Source: a virus. Taken from it: a stretch of 35,929 nucleotides of DNA. The DNA is taken from IMG/VR virus record IMGVR_UViG_3300042292_001123, positions 1-35,929 of that record, one strand, 5' to 3'. Shown piece by piece: positions 2,927 to 35,929 of this stretch. The notes beneath the pieces were generated by a model. The model saw only the letters and a program-made list of their open reading frames with translations. It ran no database searches and was not told the DNA's origin. The position numbers were made by a program, and so were the translations under genes. How positions within the stretch are numbered: position 1 is the stretch's first letter; each line of letters begins with the position of its first letter.

Positions 2927-3775
2927 ATGCCCAATACAATCGATTCAGCCCTGGTTGCGGACTCCATCGCCGCCCAGACAAAAACCGTCCTCAGCAAGCG
3001 CCTCTCCGCGCTCAACCTCTTCGCCTCCGACTTCAGCTCGGAAGTTAAGAAACCAAAGGACACCATACATGTGCCAATCGCTTCCGCGACTGCGTCCACA
3101 TCGGTGAACCCCACCACCTTCAACTCGATCGGCGGCACGACCCTCGGCAAAGCCAGCGTCGTCCTCGACCACATCTACCAGCCATTCGGCCTCGCTTACA
3201 GCGACCTCCAGAGCGCACACCGCTTGGAGCGCCTCATCCAGATCAATGTCGACGCCATCGCCGACAAAATCTGGACCTTGGCCACAACTCCCGTGACCGT
3301 CGCCAACTTCGGCGCGGCTGTCGTGGAATCCGCTGAGAGCGCGATCACCGCGACCTCCGGCGACCTTCCCAAGCTCTGGGCAGGCGTCCACAAGTCGATG
3401 CGCAAAGGACTCGTGGTCTCTCCCGTCATCTACTCGAACCTCATCCCGACCAGCACCACCGCCCTCAATCTCGGCGACGGCGCTTACGGATTTGAAAACG
3501 GCGTCCACTACGCCACAGCGTTCGGCGGAGAAGCAGGCCTCAAAGGCTTCGCGTGCTCGCCCGAGGCGCTCGTCATGGCCGCAGGCGTCCCCGCCCTCGC
3601 CGACAACGACTACCTCGTCAGCGACAGCGTCACGCTCGATCAGATCGGCCTGACCGTCTCTTACAATGTGTATTCGGACAAGAGCACCCGCTCGCTCATC
3701 GCATCGCTTGAAGTGATGTTCGGCGCATCCGCCGGCCTCACCGACGGCACGATGGCCCTCATCATCCCAGACTAA
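2927..3775 (+). CDS. Major capsid protein (probable)
   Basis: 282 residues, placed directly after the protease where the coat protein normally sits, and followed by a strong terminator, which suits a highly expressed gene. No motif identifies it outright. The N-terminus is mixed helical (about 1-30), followed by a Thr/Ser/Ala-rich beta-like region with PIASATASTSVNPTTF, then alternating segments up to EVMFGASAGLTDGTMALIIPD. The length is short for HK97-fold coats (lambda E is about 340 residues), so it may be a compact version. Assignment rests mainly on gene order. No decoration-protein gene (lambda D) is seen. Confidence 0.75.
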   Translation: MPNTIDSALVADSIAAQTKTVLSKRLSALNLFASDFSSEVKKPKDTIHVPIASATASTSVNPTTFNSIGGTTLGKASVVLDHIYQPFGLAYSDLQSAHRLERLIQINVDAIADKIWTLATTPVTVANFGAAVVESAESAITATSGDLPKLWAGVHKSMRKGLVVSPVIYSNLIPTSTTALNLGDGAYGFENGVHYATAFGGEAGLKGFACSPEALVMAAGVPALADNDYLVSDSVTLDQIGLTVSYNVYSDKSTRSLIASLEVMFGASAGLTDGTMALIIPD

Positions 3776-18366: not shown

Positions 18367-18965
18367 TGCTCTCGCTCCTCGCCCGCTTCTTCATGCTGCC
18401 CAAGCCGGCACAATCCCCCGCGCCCGCGCCGAAGCCCGCGAAGCCAACATCAAAGCCCGCCAAAACCTCCGGCACCCTCAAGCCCGAGCCGAAATACTAC
18501 CAGCAAACCAACAAGCGAACCCCCAACATCAGCGCCGGCCGCGTCATCAAGCCCACCCATGTGATCTTGCACCACACGAGCGGAGCCTACGCGGGCAGCG
18601 TCTCCTGGTGCTGCGATCCCGTCAGCAAAGTCTCCTACCACTGCATTGTGGCCCGCAACGGCAAACGCACCGCCCTCGCTCTGCCGAGCCAGAGAACATG
18701 GCACGCCGGGGTCAGCTCGTGGCAAGGCCGCAAAGACGCCAACTCGTTCAGCGTCGGCATGGCATGGGAAGGCGACACCTACCAAACGCCCTTGAGCGAA
18801 GACGCCCTCCTCAGCGCCGTCGAATATCTCCTCCCCATCATCCGCGAAAACAACATCCCCCTCGCAAACATCCTGCGACACGCCGACATCGCCCCCGGCC
18901 GCAAAGACGACTGCTCCCCAGCCGCCCACGCCGCCCTCCTCGCCGCTCTCAATAAAGTCCTTTAG
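18366..18965 (+). CDS. N-acetylmuramoyl-L-alanine amidase endolysin (Amidase_2)
   Basis: 199 residues; ATG 18366 overlaps the preceding TGA, and GTG 18363 is an alternative. It cleaves the amide bond between muramic acid and the peptide stem. After a hydrophobic start (MLSLLARFFML) and a Pro/Ala/Lys-rich linker of about 35 residues comes the amidase domain: first zinc ligand His69 in ILHHTSG, SYHCIVARNGK, the RTWHAG loop, then the RHADIAPGRKDD segment giving His172 and Asp182, as in AmpD-type enzymes. The hydrophobic start could be a signal-anchor. The gene ends one base before the arm repeats of attP. Confidence 0.9.
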   Translation: MLSLLARFFMLPKPAQSPAPAPKPAKPTSKPAKTSGTLKPEPKYYQQTNKRTPNISAGRVIKPTHVILHHTSGAYAGSVSWCCDPVSKVSYHCIVARNGKRTALALPSQRTWHAGVSSWQGRKDANSFSVGMAWEGDTYQTPLSEDALLSAVEYLLPIIRENNIPLANILRHADIAPGRKDDCSPAAHAALLAALNKVL

Positions 18966-18981
18966 GGCAACAACGGGCAAC
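18965..18981. repeat. Left arm-type repeats GGGCAAC (two)
   Basis: GGGCAAC at 18965-18971 and 18975-18981, ten bases apart (about one helix turn). The same heptamer occurs three times at 19185-19212 on the other side of the attP core. Repeats flanking the crossover site are what an integrase N-terminal arm-binding domain would recognise. Confidence 0.6.
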
Positions 18982-19018
18982 ACTCCCGTAAATCATTGCA
19001 AAACAAACCCGAAAAAGC

Positions 19019-19074
19019 GACTTAAAATCCGTTTTCGCGAAAGCGGAGTGCGGGTTCGAGTCCCGCCGCCGGCA
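19019..19074 (+). other. attP core: 3' half of tRNA-Leu(UAA)
   Basis: The sequence fits a tRNA-Leu(UAA) from anticodon loop to discriminator base: loop CTTAAAA (19021-19027, anticodon TAA 19023-19025), anticodon-stem 3' strand TCCGT, a long variable arm, T-stem/loop GCGGG-TTCGAGT-CCCGC (19050-19066), acceptor 3' strand CGCCGGC and base A at 19074. There is no 5' half, so this is not a functional tRNA gene but a duplicated part of the host target. The expected host tRNA would begin GCCGGCG. The long variable arm is typical of Leu. Confidence 0.85.
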
Positions 19075-19111: not shown

Positions 19112-19184
19112 GTTGGCGGGTGGTTGGCTTTCAGAAACAACGGGCGGGAAGTGGCGGCTTGTGGAAGAAAATAGTTGAGAATCC

Positions 19185-19212
19185 GGGCAACACGGGCAAC
19201 AGTTCGGGCAAC
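19185..19212. repeat. Right arm-type repeats GGGCAAC (three)
   Basis: GGGCAAC at 19185-19191, 19194-19200 and 19206-19212. They end four bases before the likely integrase start, so integrase binding could also control its own expression. Confidence 0.6.
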
Positions 19213-19215
19213 AGC

Positions 19216-20235
19216 ATGAGCGCCTTTCTTGTGACACCTTACCCGCAGCGGCCTTCGACGCCTTGGAAGTTGACTATTCCACAGAAAATTTTTGGCAAAA
19301 GGATTCGCCGTTTTTACCGGACCGAGGCGGAGGCTTGGGCGGCGGGGCCGGGGCTTTTGGAGAAACTTCAGAAGGGGGGGACGGATTCGCTCTCGGAGGA
19401 TCAGGCGAGGGGCATGTCGATGAAGTCGGCGGTGCGGGATTACATCGCCTCCAAGGCGGGCAGCTCGGAGCGGCACAGGGAGAAATTAGAAAAGATTTGC
19501 GGCGAGCTTTTGGATGCTTTCCCTGGCTCCGTGGCGTCGGTCACTCCGATGCAGGCGGCGAGGGTCTTTGCGAAGATCAAGGGCGCGCCGACCACGCGGG
19601 CAGGGTGGCATCGTTACGCTTCGGGATTTTTTCGGTGGTGCGTCGATATGGAACTCCTCGACCGGAATCCATTTCGGCGCGTCGTGGCGCCGGAGGCTGA
19701 GTCGAAGAGGTCCCTGATCTCGGCGAAGGAACTCCGGGCGATTCTGGATGCGGAGATGAGCGACGCGCTCCGCGCTTGGTTTTTGCTAGGTGCCTTTGCT
19801 GGGCTGAGATCCATCGAGGTCCATCGCATGAGGTGGGAGGATGTGGATCCGAAGACGGGACAGATCGAGGTGCGGCGGGAGGTTTCAAAACAAAGCTCAG
19901 GCCTGCCAGAGCGGATCGTGGACTTCACGGAGCCTCTGAAGAAGCAGCGGGGTTTCTTTCAGAAAAAAACTGGCCTGATTGTGCCGGCGAAATCTCTCCG
20001 GCTTTATCGGGAGCGTGAGGGTTTGATCGAGCGGTTGAATGAGGAGGGCTTGGTGCCGTGGGCCAAGCTGCCCGAGAACGCCCTTCGGCATTCTTTCGCT
20101 ACCTACCACCTCGGCCGCTGCCAGGATGCAGGCAAGACCGCGCACCAGCTCGGGCATTCCTCGACGGCGCTGGTTCTCAAAACCTACGCGGTGCCTTCGC
20201 GTAAGGCGGACTGGCGGGCTTGGTGGCGGGTTTAG
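19216..20235 (+). CDS. int: Tyrosine integrase
   Basis: 339 residues from ATG 19216; a longer GTG start at 19120 would make the arm repeats coding, so I prefer the shorter. Inserts and excises the phage at the tRNA-Leu(UAA) gene. Domains: arm-binding N-terminus (about 1-60), SAM-like core-binding domain (about 65-155), catalytic domain (about 165-335). Catalytic residues: Arg198 (AGLRSIE), Lys225 (EVSK), Arg291 in NALRHSF, His314 (LGHSS) and Tyr324 (KTYAV). The His of HxxR is replaced by Asn288, which occurs in some phage integrases. It lies next to attP, as expected. Convergent with the minus-strand gene after it. Confidence 0.93.
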   Translation: MSAFLVTPYPQRPSTPWKLTIPQKIFGKRIRRFYRTEAEAWAAGPGLLEKLQKGGTDSLSEDQARGMSMKSAVRDYIASKAGSSERHREKLEKICGELLDAFPGSVASVTPMQAARVFAKIKGAPTTRAGWHRYASGFFRWCVDMELLDRNPFRRVVAPEAESKRSLISAKELRAILDAEMSDALRAWFLLGAFAGLRSIEVHRMRWEDVDPKTGQIEVRREVSKQSSGLPERIVDFTEPLKKQRGFFQKKTGLIVPAKSLRLYREREGLIERLNEEGLVPWAKLPENALRHSFATYHLGRCQDAGKTAHQLGHSSTALVLKTYAVPSRKADWRAWWRV

Positions 20236-20262: not shown

Positions 20263-20532
20263 CTACCCAGCCCGGCGGGAGGAATTCCTCGTGGCCGTTG
20301 AGCGCGAAGAAACGGAACTCTCGGACGCTTTCACTACTTTGGCACCAGCACTGTCCGGGGATGGGACTTTTCCCTGTTCGCCTTTGCGAAGCTCAATCAA
20401 GGCATGCTCTACCACGCTTGAAAATGTGACCTTCGCCCATGGGGTCGAGGCTTTTGTTTCCTCCATTTTTTTTACGACCCAATCATGTAGTTCGATAGGC
20501 AGAGAAACATTCTGCGTTTTGATTTTTTTCAC
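20263..20532 (-). CDS. Ribbon-helix-helix DNA-binding protein, candidate repressor
   Basis: 89 residues on the minus strand from GTG (complement of 20530-20532). The core, QNVSLPIELHDWVVKKMEE..., then FSSVVEHALIELRKG, fits a ribbon-helix-helix fold: one strand with alternating polar residues, then two helices with the SxVVEHAL signature. The C-terminal 35 residues are Ser/Arg-rich and disordered-like. It is the only minus-strand gene I support and faces the second RHH gene across an AT-rich intergenic region, so it is a good candidate lysogeny repressor of the early operon. Confidence 0.7.
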   Translation of the reverse strand: MKKIKTQNVSLPIELHDWVVKKMEETKASTPWAKVTFSSVVEHALIELRKGEQGKVPSPDSAGAKVVKASESSVSSRSTATRNSSRRAG

Positions 20533-20696
20533 GCAAAAAAAATAGCACAGATGTCAACGATAGCAAAATTGTGAAAAAATAATATCGCCCGCAAACCCAG
20601 TCCCCATGCGGGTGTCAATAGAAAAATAACATTCCGTGGTGGGGTGATTTACTTATTTTGTTGGCAAGATTGGCAAGATTGGCAAGATTGCTGGCC
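20533..20696. promoter_or_regulatory. Divergent control region between two RHH genes
   Basis: 164 bases, AT-rich at the left. TGTCAA (TTGACA on the minus strand) occurs at 20552-20557 and 20613-20618, 61 bases apart, and TAATAT at 20580-20585 looks like a -10 box. No full promoter with good spacing is clear on either strand. Three tandem TTGGCAAGA units (20661-20687) stand directly before the rightward ATG. Operators for RHH proteins would be expected here. Confidence 0.5.
20661..20687. repeat. Triple tandem repeat TTGGCAAGA
   Basis: Three perfect 9-bp units end ten bases before ATG 20697. If the TTG at 20658 were the start, they would encode LARLARLAR. As non-coding DNA they could be an operator array for dimers of RHH protein or a site that varies by slippage. 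Confidence 0.6.
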
Positions 20697-20876
20697 ATGC
20701 AAAACAAGAAGCACAAAGCGATCTCCATAAGCCTTCCTTCCGAGGTTTGGAATTATGTGAAAAGTCGCGCTGAAAATGGCGGGGTAAAAGTCCCGCTGAG
20801 CAGGGTGGTGGCACACGCCATCGAACAGTTGGCCATTAAAGAAAACAAAGCGGCCAAACGGGAGGCCAAGAAATGA
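20697..20876 (+). CDS. Ribbon-helix-helix DNA-binding protein, rightward partner
   Basis: 59 residues from ATG 20697 (an in-frame TTG at 20658 would add LARLAR). The core AISISLPSEVWNYVKSRAEN...LSRVVAHAIEQLAIKE aligns with the minus-strand RHH protein: strand SISLP / NVSLP, and second helix SRVVAHAIEQL / SSVVEHALIEL. The pair, divergent across a control region beside int, resembles a two-repressor switch. The stop overlaps the next start (ATGA). Confidence 0.65.
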   Translation: MQNKKHKAISISLPSEVWNYVKSRAENGGVKVPLSRVVAHAIEQLAIKENKAAKREAKK

Positions 20877-21106
20877 ACCTCTCCGATGTCTACATAAACA
20901 TGGACGAGGCGAAGCGCCTCTCGGGTTTTTCTTCCCGCTCGATCCGCGACTACATCAAGCGCGGAGAATTTGCGGCGAGCTTACCACGCGGCCGGTGCGG
21001 TGGTTGGCACATCGTCCGTCAGTCATTCCTCGATTGGTGGGGCTACCGCAACGCGAGCACCGCGAACCGCACGACGGTCCCAGCACGCAAGGGGAGGGCG
21101 GCGTAA
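20873..21106 (+). CDS. Excisionase/MerR-like helix-turn-helix protein
   Basis: 77 residues. YINMDEAKRLSGFSSRSIRDYIKRGEFAASLPRGRCGGWHIVRQSFLDWW has the order of an excisionase-type winged helix: a helix with DEAKRLSG, a turn, a recognition helix with SIRDYIKRG, and a GWHI strand that would be the wing. It could be the excisionase or an early regulator. GGAGG lies eight bases before ATG. It overlaps the preceding gene by four bases and the next by one. Confidence 0.65.
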   Translation: MNLSDVYINMDEAKRLSGFSSRSIRDYIKRGEFAASLPRGRCGGWHIVRQSFLDWWGYRNASTANRTTVPARKGRAA

Positions 21107-28750: not shown

Positions 28751-28959
28751 GCAAACGCAAAAAACCCAAATTCGGAGGGCGCGGGAAGATCATCCAAGAG
28801 GTGTCCGGCTATCGGGAGTTTCGAGAAGCCTGGCTCGCCAACATGCTCGAAGAGATGTCCGCCGCCTGCGACCGCTTTTGGAGCAAGACGCCCGAGCGCC
28901 GGAAAATCGAGGCCGCACGCCTGCGGTCAGGATTCAACTTTGGACACTCTCATGAATAA
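28747..28959 (+). CDS. Small basic protein after RusA
   Basis: 70 residues from ATG 28747 (ATGA overlap). MSKRKKPKFGGRGKIIQEVSGYREFREAWLANMLEEMSAACDRFWSKTPERRK is strongly basic at the start, with one helix. Perhaps nucleic-acid binding. No family seen. It overlaps the following gene's start by eight bases. Confidence 0.5.
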   Translation: MSKRKKPKFGGRGKIIQEVSGYREFREAWLANMLEEMSAACDRFWSKTPERRKIEAARLRSGFNFGHSHE

Positions 28960-29455
28960 CTCATTCACCGCAAGAAACGGCGAGCCTGCCTATATGCCTG
29001 ACTACGACCTCGACACCCCCGAGGACACGCTCGCCGATGAACTCGGCACGACGCCGGCCGTGGCTCGCAAGGTCATTGCGATGCTCCAAGCCGCCGAAGT
29101 GCGCCAGCAGGCGTTGACCCTCGGCAAAGTCGTCGGGCTTTTGCTCGAGACGAACAACCTGCCGGTCATGGCCAACGCGATCGCTTTCGCGGCTGGCCTT
29201 GACCAGCTCAACGGCAAGATGTCCCAGGCGCAGGTGGCTCGGGAGCTAAAGGTCACACGCGCCCTCGTCTCCCATTATGTCGTCGGCGTGAGGGATTTCC
29301 TCTCAGGCAAAAGCCAGACATTCGACTGCACCAAGTTCCGTAAGTCCAACAAGTCGCGCCAGACCTTCAGAGAGAAAGCGACCGATCCATTCACGGCGGC
29401 CAAGGCGGCTGCCATCGCCAGATACAAAGCCAGCAACCACATCACCACAAAATGA
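28952..29455 (+). CDS. HTH protein of the early-late junction
   Basis: 167 residues from ATG 28952 (a TTG at 28940 is also in frame). A helix-turn-helix is visible near 95-112: SQAQVARELKVTRALVSHYVVG, the classic AxxLxVTRAxVSxY layout. The flanks are LDTPEDTLADELGTTPAVARKVIAMLQAAE (also HTH-like) and a basic C-terminus with KSQTFDCTKFRKSNKSRQTFREKA. It may regulate late genes or switch replication to packaging. The stop overlaps the next start. Confidence 0.6.
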   Translation: MNNSFTARNGEPAYMPDYDLDTPEDTLADELGTTPAVARKVIAMLQAAEVRQQALTLGKVVGLLLETNNLPVMANAIAFAAGLDQLNGKMSQAQVARELKVTRALVSHYVVGVRDFLSGKSQTFDCTKFRKSNKSRQTFREKATDPFTAAKAAAIARYKASNHITTK

Positions 29456-30208: not shown

Positions 30209-30865
30209 GTGGGAATCACGGAATTAAGCAACGCGTTAAACATCGACAAGTCGGTCGTCTCTCGCCTCGTCAAGAAAGGCATGCCGACGACCAGCGTGGA
30301 CGCCGCCCAGGCGTGGCGCGAATCGAACGCACCGCCGCGCGCCAAGCGTGGCCAGCGCGGCACACCCCCACCGGCGCCGAAACTCTCAAAGGTCGCCGAA
30401 CCTCCGAGAGTGTCAGAGCCTGCCGAGCCTCTGCCAGTTCCTCCGCCGCCGCCGGTTCACGACAGCGCACCCGAGCCGGACGACGAGGACAACACGCCGC
30501 GCCAATCCCTCCGCCGCGCCCGCCTTGCTGAGAAGGTCGGCTACAACGAACTCGTCATCTGCAAGCGCAACGGCGGATCGGTCGAAGACATCCGCAAGGC
30601 AAACCAAATCTACATCGCCAGCCGGAACAACCGCATCAAGGCCGAGAAGGATTTCAAAGACTGGCAACGCCAGGAAGCCATCACCCTCTTTTACGACGAA
30701 GCGCGCGACATCACGAGCCGCCCGCACATCACCGCCAAGCAGCTCCTCGAAGTCATGCCCAAGACCCTCGCCACCCGGTTGCACGGCCAACCGCAGAAAA
30801 CCATCGAAGCCACCCTCGCCGAGTGGGCCGACAACCTCACGACCATCATCCGAAAAGCCATATGA
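30209..30865 (+). CDS. terS: Terminase small subunit, Nu1-like
   Basis: 218 residues from GTG 30209. The N-terminal TELSNALNIDKSVVSRLVKKGMP (about 4-26) is a helix-turn-helix of the Nu1 type that would read the packaging site. A Pro-rich hinge (about 52-95, with PPPPPVHD) separates it from a helical C-terminal part (LRRARLAEKVGYNELVICKRNGGSVEDIRKANQIYIASRNNRIKAEKDF...LAEWADNLTTIIRKAI), likely the oligomerisation and TerL-binding part. Its place before terL is typical; a methyltransferase gene lies between. The stop overlaps the methyltransferase start. Confidence 0.8.
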   Translation: MGITELSNALNIDKSVVSRLVKKGMPTTSVDAAQAWRESNAPPRAKRGQRGTPPPAPKLSKVAEPPRVSEPAEPLPVPPPPPVHDSAPEPDDEDNTPRQSLRRARLAEKVGYNELVICKRNGGSVEDIRKANQIYIASRNNRIKAEKDFKDWQRQEAITLFYDEARDITSRPHITAKQLLEVMPKTLATRLHGQPQKTIEATLAEWADNLTTIIRKAI

Positions 30866-32376
30866 CCATCGAACACCTCAAAACCTCCGACCTCATCCCC
30901 TACGCGCGCAACGCGAAAAAGCACGACGCCAGCCAAGTCGCCAAGCTCGCCGGGAGCATCCGCGAATTCGGCTTCACCAACCCCGTCCTCATCGACAACG
31001 ACAACGGCATCATCGCCGGTCACGGCCGCGTCCTCGCCGCTCAATCCCTCGCCCTCGAGTCCGTCCCCTGCATCCGCCTCGGCCACCTCACCGACACGCA
31101 GCGCCGAGCCTACATCCTCGCCGACAACCGCCTCGCCGAAATCGGCGGTGGGTGGGATGAGGAAATGCTAAAGCTCGAGCTGGCGGATCTCGCCGCTCTT
31201 GATGTCGATGTCGCCGAGATTGGATTCGGCGCTGAAGACCTCGCCGAGCTGGAGATGGAAGACGAGGCGGAAAAATCAGACGCCGACGCCGAGCCACAGA
31301 TCGACAAGGCCGAAGAACTCCGCGCCAAGTGGGGCGTCGAGCCAGGGCAACTTTGGGAGCTTGGCGCGCATCGGATTCTGTGTGGCGACTCCACGATCCC
31401 AGAGCATGTGGCGAAGCTCATGGGCGGGGAGAAGGCAAAGCTCATCCACGCCGACCCGCCCTACGGCATGGGCAAAGAAAAAGACGGGGTGGAAAATGAC
31501 AACCTTTACCGCGAAAACCTCGACGCCTTCCAAATGGAATGGTGGCGAGCGATTCGGCCACACACCGAAGACAACGCCAGCGCCTACATCTGGGGGAATG
31601 CCGAGGACTTGTGGCGGCTCTGGTATGTCGGTGGATTGACAAAATCCGAACGCCTGACTTTTCGGAATGAAATTGTTTGGTGGAAAGGGAACTCAACGAC
31701 CGGCCGAGTTGTAGGAATGGGGCAAGCGACAAGCGCCGGTAGATCATACTCGGAACTTTCTGAGCGCTGCCTTTTCTTCATGCTTGGCGAGCAGGGATTC
31801 AACAACAACGCCGACAACTATTGGGACGGGTGGGAGCCGATCAGGTCATACCTTGTTTCTGAAAAAGAAAAAAGCGGACTCACCAACGCCGACATCTTAA
31901 AAATCACCAGCACTTACCACACTCACTACTGGGCGACATCTCAGTGGTGCTTTCCGACTGAGAGCGATTACAAGGCCATCCAAAAAGCCGCAAAAGGAAA
32001 AGCCTTTAAGCGAGAGCACGACGAACTCAAGCGAGAGCACGACGAACTCAAGCGAGAGTTCTACGCCACCCGCGCTTTCTTCGACAACACGCACGACAAT
32101 ATGACCGACGTTTGGTCATTTCCTCGCGTCACTGGAGAAGAACGCCACGGGCACGCCACACCAAAACCCGTCGAGATGATGAAGCGCGTCATGCTTTCAA
32201 GTTTGCCCAAGGGCGGAATATGCGTGGAGCCTTTCGGCGGCAGTGGCTCAACTTTAATGGGGGCAGAAAATACAGGCCGCAAATGCCGCGCCATCGAAAT
32301 CTCGCCCGCCTATGTCGCCGTGGCGATCCAGCGATGGGCCGACGCCACCGGCAAGGAACCCAAGCGCCTCGCATGA
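30862..32376 (+). CDS. ParB/Srx-type domain fused to DNA methyltransferase
   Basis: 504 residues. The first about 115 residues are ParB-like (LIPYARNAKKHDASQVAKLAGSIREFGFTNPVLIDNDNGIIAGHGRVLAAQSL). From about 150 it is a beta-class (N4 or N6) methyltransferase: catalytic DPPYG at about 198-202 comes before the AdoMet-binding FGGSGST at about 458. It probably methylates phage DNA to evade host restriction, and the ParB-like part may aid target choice. Between the two motifs is an in-frame 21-bp tandem repeat (32008-32058) encoding KREHDEL heptads. The region about 300-400 is AT-richer and insertion-like. Overlaps terS and terL by four bases. Confidence 0.88.
   Translation: MTIEHLKTSDLIPYARNAKKHDASQVAKLAGSIREFGFTNPVLIDNDNGIIAGHGRVLAAQSLALESVPCIRLGHLTDTQRRAYILADNRLAEIGGGWDEEMLKLELADLAALDVDVAEIGFGAEDLAELEMEDEAEKSDADAEPQIDKAEELRAKWGVEPGQLWELGAHRILCGDSTIPEHVAKLMGGEKAKLIHADPPYGMGKEKDGVENDNLYRENLDAFQMEWWRAIRPHTEDNASAYIWGNAEDLWRLWYVGGLTKSERLTFRNEIVWWKGNSTTGRVVGMGQATSAGRSYSELSERCLFFMLGEQGFNNNADNYWDGWEPIRSYLVSEKEKSGLTNADILKITSTYHTHYWATSQWCFPTESDYKAIQKAAKGKAFKREHDELKREHDELKREFYATRAFFDNTHDNMTDVWSFPRVTGEERHGHATPKPVEMMKRVMLSSLPKGGICVEPFGGSGSTLMGAENTGRKCRAIEISPAYVAVAIQRWADATGKEPKRLA
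32008..32058 (+). repeat. 21-bp tandem repeat inside the methyltransferase gene
   Basis: Unit AAGCGAGAGCACGACGAACTC occurs at 32008-32028 and 32029-32049, with a partial third copy to 32058. Each unit encodes the heptad KREHDEL, so copy changes keep the frame and lengthen a coiled coil. Confidence 0.85.
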
Positions 32377-35206: not shown

Positions 35207-35479
35207 GTGACCGACCTCGACAAAATCAGCGGCGTTAAAAGCTACCTCCGCCGCACCAAGAACACCGCCGAACTCCAGGCGCTCGCCGACGCGGCTTTTC
35301 TTTCTGCGTCCGAGGAAGTCGTCATAACCTCCATTTCCGGCGACGGCACCGCCTCCAGCGGACAGGTCAGTTTCCCAAAATGGCTCCTCCTGCAAGCCCT
35401 CGAAGAAATCCTCGCTGAGCCAAACGGCCGGCAACTCTGCACGGTCCTCGACCGCTCGTTTTTCACGACCCCCGTTTGA
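35207..35479 (+). CDS. gpW-like head-tail joining protein (full copy)
   Basis: 90 residues from GTG 35207, GAGG just before it and TTTGACA at 35187-35193. Lies between terL and portal exactly as lambda W does, and is the right size for gpW-like proteins. Helical start (DLDKISGVKSYLRRTKNTAELQALADAAF), a beta hairpin ITSISGDGTASSGQVSF, then a helix WLLLQALEEILAE. In lambda, W acts after DNA packaging to make the head ready for tail joining. The stop lies 17 bases before the portal ATG. Confidence 0.7.
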   Translation: MTDLDKISGVKSYLRRTKNTAELQALADAAFLSASEEVVITSISGDGTASSGQVSFPKWLLLQALEEILAEPNGRQLCTVLDRSFFTTPV

Positions 35480-35496
35480 CACGGCCCTCGGAGTCA

Positions 35497-35929
35497 ATGG
35501 CTCCGAAAATCAAGAAATCAAGTTGGGGTGGTCCGCGCCCCGGTGCCGGCCGTCCTCGCAGAGACCCACAAGCAGCGGCCTTTGAAGGAGCGGAGCACTC
35601 CCGCGAGCGCTCCTTGATTGTCATGAATACCTACGAGCCCAAGCGTGAACTCGCGCCACGGACTCGCATGGAGCTGATGCAGCGCGCCCGCTGGCTTTAC
35701 AACAATTTCGGCACCGCCTCCTATCTCATCGAGCACCTCGCCCAGCGCGCCGTCGGAACCGGCATCGTCCCCAAGGCCCGCACCTCCGACACCGCATGGA
35801 ATCGCCAAGCCGAGCGCGCCTTCGAAGACCGCGCTTGCGGTGATGCGTGGGCTTTCGATGCCAGCGCCCAGGTGAATTTCTACGGTGCGCAATCTCTCAT
35901 CCTCCGCCAAGTCGCCTGCGACGGCGATT
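35497..35929 (+). CDS. Portal protein 5' end, second copy (cut by window edge)
   Basis: The first 144 codons of the portal gene again, identical in protein to the copy at 66 except Arg for Lys in GRPR(K/R)D. The DNA differs at about 18 places, almost all third positions. It is not a second gene so much as the overlap of a circular genome assembled from two related phages. Confidence 0.85.
   Translation, partial: MAPKIKKSSWGGPRPGAGRPRRDPQAAAFEGAEHSRERSLIVMNTYEPKRELAPRTRMELMQRARWLYNNFGTASYLIEHLAQRAVGTGIVPKARTSDTAWNRQAERAFEDRACGDAWAFDASAQVNFYGAQSLILRQVACDGD

Follow-up and report, generated by a model that had tools for sequence, protein, structure and literature searches.

A divergent pair of RHH proteins as the probable primary immunity switch of a group of uncultured temperate phages

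Two small genes that point away from each other beside the integrase gene of an uncultured phage raise the question of how such a phage, with no evident CI-like repressor, might keep its lytic functions silent. The first-pass annotation of this DNA proposed that the two products, both taken to be RHH proteins, could themselves form the lysogeny switch. The locus is described here together with its relatives in viral contigs and with the regulatory systems that it most resembles.

The window and its integration module

The window, i.e., the whole stretch of DNA analysed, is an IMG/VR virus record (IMGVR_UViG_3300042292_001123) of 35,929 bases. Because the last 498 bases (35432-35929) match the first 498 (1-498) at 96.4%, the record wraps around and represents a near-complete genome of about 35.4 kb; this degree of identity suggests a closed genome whose assembly drew on mixed strains. 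The window encodes tailed-phage genes for a portal, head maturation protease, tape measure, amidase, integrase, PIF1-like helicase, D5-type primase and gpA-type terminase. All clear genes are directed rightward, and the only well-supported leftward gene is gene A of the pair considered here. The remaining leftward ORFs with a codon-usage score sit opposite rightward genes, and two of these gave no match when tested for families. In one ORF (30823-32376), a weak ParB_N match and an N6/N4 DNA methylase domain share a single reading frame.

The gene for the tyrosine integrase (int, 19120..20235, + strand) is preceded by an attP core (19018..19074, + strand) that consists of the 3' half of a tRNA-Leu(UAA) gene. 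The core is flanked by repeats of GGGCAACA at 18962-18983 and 19184-19214, which are probable Int arm sites, and the same arrangement, the tRNA-Leu(UAA) 3' half upstream of int with GGGCAACA repeats on either side, was seen in all relatives inspected. The variable arm of the tRNA-Leu sequence occurs among relatives in two main versions, TTTTCGCGAAAGCGGA or TGATCCGAAAGGGTC, which perhaps match different hosts. Genome contigs searched by int and the tRNA-Leu attP pattern yielded no integrated prophage or host, so lysogeny itself is what we infer; int, the excisionase-like gene and the intact attP in tRNA-Leu point to a temperate phage. Among phage records, the nearest full-length matches to int were found in Akkermansia phages (23-24%), whose int neighbourhoods contain no annotated RHH pair. 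Phage records searched with gene B gave no meaningful match.

Genes A and B and their control region

Both ORFs of the pair were confirmed and are divergently oriented. Gene A (20263..20532, - strand, 89 aa, GTG start) does lie beside int, as had been stated, with its end 27 bp beyond that gene. Gene B (20697..20876, + strand) overlaps with its end the start of an HTH_17 (excisionase-like) regulator gene (20873..21106, + strand), and int and this HTH gene form the left and right borders of the cassette discussed below. Gene B is the first in a series of co-directional genes that leads into the replication genes, and the opposing genes A and B are found at the head of the early genes and near int, a position like that of cI/cro. 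A mechanical ORF call had placed the start of gene B at a TTG (20658); this start was dropped, and the probable start is ATG 20697, since the homologous position is an ATG in relatives. A recognisable Shine-Dalgarno sequence is absent from 20688-20696, and in several types a copy of the operator candidate abuts the ATG; the gene B mRNA may be leaderless.

The claim that both proteins share the RHH core was borne out at the level of profiles. Single-sequence BLASTP of A against B produced no alignment, and the evidence for paralogy therefore comes from profiles and from Smith-Waterman scores compared with shuffles. Profiles from 24 A relatives and 20 B relatives aligned over the RHH core (97.9% probability, E 6e-13), and the Smith-Waterman score for T1 was 61 against a shuffle mean of 22, with 0 of 2000 shuffles scoring as high. 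The gene B profile matches Arc structures (1b28, E 1e-5) and also other RHH proteins, and Pfam RHH models match, weakly, in up to 10 of the 20 gene B relatives. Gene A alone had no match in Pfam; its relatives gave weak matches to RHH_1 and Arc. AF2 predicts a strand-helix-helix arrangement for gene A with low confidence (pLDDT 56) and two helices for gene B (pLDDT 78). Foldseek returned nothing useful with the gene A model and RHH proteins, with weak E-values, with the gene B model. The RHH domain was thus recovered by profile for the pair, gene A alone being negative in Pfam and Foldseek.

Selection acts differently on the parts of gene A. The dN/dS ratio is 0.07-0.12 in its RHH domain (first 52 codons, approximately residues 1-52) and 0.12-0.19 in gene B, compared with about 0.5-1.6, i.e., about 1, in the C-terminal tail of gene A (residues 53-89), which is apparently unconstrained. 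These values indicate that A and B are both real genes and that A amounts to an RHH domain followed by a tail that drifts; a functional role for the tail was considered and, given its dN/dS, judged unlikely. Codon-usage scoring does not back gene A (LL -7).

The pair faces away from one control region, as first described, namely the 164 bp between the divergent starts (20533..20696). Its B-proximal operator candidate (20661..20690, + strand) consists of three direct copies of TTGGCAAGA, located at 20661-20687 with a 9-nt pitch, the distance from the first to the third being 18 nt. The 13-mer TTGGCAAGATTGG is over-represented in the window compared with shuffles because of these three copies. 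The A-proximal operator candidate (20555..20571) is degenerate in the window (CAACGATAGCAAAATTG); in the relative L034 the homologous site reads CAATCTTGGCAACTATG, and the repeats homologous to the B-side TTGGCAAGA copies of the window recur beside gene A too. A central block (20585..20625), composed of an inverted repeat, CCGC-N15-GCGG, followed by TGTCAATAGAAA, is conserved in types T1-T3 and T5-T8 and is a possible shared promoter or regulator site. No sigma-70-like site was detected in a promoter scan.

Joint variation of the pair among relatives

Collection of relatives from int, which is unbiased with respect to the pair, gave 66 loci in viral contigs (IMG/VR); counting the window, 48 loci hold the complete int-to-HTH interval. 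Some of these 48 contigs are near-duplicates, so that independent events are fewer than 48. The search of relatives for the same pair, suggested in the first-pass annotation, showed that all 48 complete loci carry two RHH genes, one resembling A on the - strand and one resembling B on the + strand. The RHH domain of A and gene B vary jointly and make up at least eight types (T1, T2 and so on). Across T1-T6 the int flank is 90-96% and the HTH flank 82-99% identical to that of the window, whereas the A proteins of different types, and likewise the B proteins, are strongly diverged or unrelated. Joint change of A and B between conserved flanks is the mosaic signature of immunity-region exchange.

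The type of A equals the type of B in 48/48 loci. The neighbouring elements, i.e., the A tail, the variant of the central block and the haplotype of the HTH gene, reassort across loci: T2 has two main tails, T3 has one tail in common with T1 and another with T4, and one identical central block variant was found in both T2 and T5. Recombination could take place within the conserved block that separates A from B; that the two genes nevertheless stay linked in all loci suggests selection for matched pairs. Distant relatives were searched with single B types (T4, T2 and T6) as queries. Nearly all of the distant loci inspected have a divergent A partner, with an int of 23-59% identity or no int match in the stretch, and in some the int is inverted. 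A T1 cassette was found on a distant backbone, with identities of 88% for B and 65% for A versus 48% for int and 42% for the HTH gene. The occurrence of the pair on diverged backbones makes it look like a mobile module.

Most types carry a repeat of their own just upstream of B, usually as a pair with a spacing of about 18 nt, and often a further copy near A (GTAGCAC in T2/T7, GGTGCAC in T5, TGTGCAC in T6, TTGGCAA in T1). When an exact 7-mer was required to occur two or more times on the B side and one or more times on the A side, with dinucleotide shuffles as the comparison, T1b, T2, T5, T6 and T7 passed (each p <= 0.0025), and no exact 7-mer qualified in the window itself, T3, T4 or T8. The T2 repeat GGTAGCACC is kept beside the B start in distant relatives in which B is 60-69% and int 26-48% identical. 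In the T6-like relatives L196-L201 (approximately 2940-3003), GTGAGCAC is found beside B instead of GTGTGCAC; the operator may have shifted there, along with divergence of A and B.

A and B of one type also resemble each other. Over the whole domain, the pairing of each A with the B of its own type was the best of 720 permutations (p 0.0014, six types). The outward residues of the recognition strand, which we take to lie at Arc positions 9, 11 and 13, are alike in A and B of one type (SGS/AGS in T4, FAR/FGR in T6, KNS/KSS in T2), and these triads favour within-type pairing (p 0.003). The choice of triads was made post hoc, and T2, T3, T7 and T8 are related types, which makes the six-type whole-domain test the fairer one. 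The simplest reading is that A and B share operators, as CI and Cro do; alternatively, recent duplication or gene conversion could have produced the likeness within types.

Known systems, alternative roles and the proposed switch

The first-pass annotation would have been contradicted by another repressor in the genome; in the window record no match to HTH_3, HTH_19 or Peptidase_S24 was above the cut-off. Peptidase_S24, HTH_19 and the Bro-N antirepressor domain (PF02498, the only antirepressor model used) had no match in 15 records. HTH_3 gave sub-cut-off matches only, mostly in one late gene recurring across types. The remark that the window holds no CI-like repressor thus stands, save for this one sub-threshold HTH_3 domain (29216-29293), which lies in a conserved gene (28940-29455) ahead of the terminase; this gene recurs in relatives and could be another, possibly late, regulator.

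In lambdoid phages, cI and cro form a divergent pair of repressors of one fold that share operators and are exchanged as a cassette between conserved flanks. The pair of the window is likewise divergent, of a single fold and exchanged as a cassette between conserved flanks, but it is RHH, not HTH. The absence of an S24 peptidase domain means that an induction route other than that of the cI/cro type would be needed.

Salmonella phage P22 has a separate primary repressor, c2, in addition to its RHH proteins Mnt and Arc. The earlier statement that Arc and Mnt do not have the present layout is wrong: in the annotated P22 record mnt and arc are divergent, the operators O-arc and O-mnt occupy the interval, one within the rightward promoter and the other just past it, and Mnt is annotated as maintenance of lysogeny. 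Judged by layout and repeats, the window, with its divergent RHH pair and candidate operators in between, shares the layout of P22 immI. Together with the weak HTH domain at 29216-29293, this likeness favours a secondary switch, in which A and B would act as Mnt and Arc on an antirepressor or other lytic gene and the primary repressor would be another, unrecognised protein. We consider this unlikely. The P22 pair controls the antirepressor Ant (PMC2629481) and is located among late genes, between the injection and tailspike genes (annotated P22 record; PMC2629481), whereas the pair of the window, of which there are at least eight types, lies beside int, xis and attP; downstream of the arc homologue lie the HTH_17/xis gene and then the replication genes, with no ant recognised there by the Bro-N model, and neither Bro-N nor an S24-type repressor was found in the 15 records. 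The role of the pair seems to differ from that of mnt/arc, being that of a primary switch.

Less probable still is a pair that regulates only excision and integration, i.e., the HTH (xis) gene and int, and not lytic development. Its place between int and an excisionase-like gene would suit such a role, but gene B heads the co-directional run into the replication genes, specificity types turn over fast, as immunity but not excision control would lead one to expect, and no other immunity locus was recognised. That A or B is an RHH antitoxin, and the locus a toxin-antitoxin module or its remnant, is very improbable in spite of a weak match of gene B to CopG_antitoxin (PF12441, E 0.005, below the cut-off), as both partners are RHH proteins conserved together and their neighbours are int and the HTH gene, with no recognisable toxin.

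An RHH protein can serve as a lysogeny regulator: F55 of the archaeal virus SSV1 is a small RHH protein that maintains lysogeny via repeated short sites in the early promoters and its own promoter (PMC9608457), although it is a single regulator of an archaeal virus, with no divergent partner described there.

The comparative evidence (position, int, attP, cassette exchange and type-specific repeats) supports the proposal of a lysogeny switch, and to the reading that these temperate phages use the A/B pair as their primary immunity switch we give a probability of roughly 0.75. Gene A, transcribed leftward toward int, would encode the prophage repressor, and gene B, which opens the rightward replication operon, the Cro-like lytic repressor. 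Both would act as RHH dimers that have similar recognition strands and compete for the same short operators, two of them approximately 18 nt apart just upstream of the B start codon and at least one upstream of A. Binding of A to the B-side sites would silence the whole rightward operon, and binding of B to the A-side sites would silence A. DNA binding, the assignment of the two repressor roles, mutual repression, bistability and immunity are predictions drawn from these comparisons.

With less assurance, we favour on balance a broader statement: primary immunity in a large group of uncultured temperate phages would depend solely on paralogous RHH pairs, with at least eight mutually heteroimmune specificities whose operators and recognition strands would have changed in step with each other and independently of the CI/Cro fold. 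A search of the open literature, most subscription papers being outside its coverage, turned up no account of a primary switch built on such an RHH pair, and its use as a primary, multi-allelic immunity cassette seems to be new here. Phage switches are usually read through CI/Cro. The present locus suggests that a full immunity system can be present even in phages that lack any recognisable CI repressor, and the Mnt/Arc design of P22 would be recast as a possible primary switch. The natural A/B/operator types, at least eight in number, give a basis on which an RHH recognition code could be tested.
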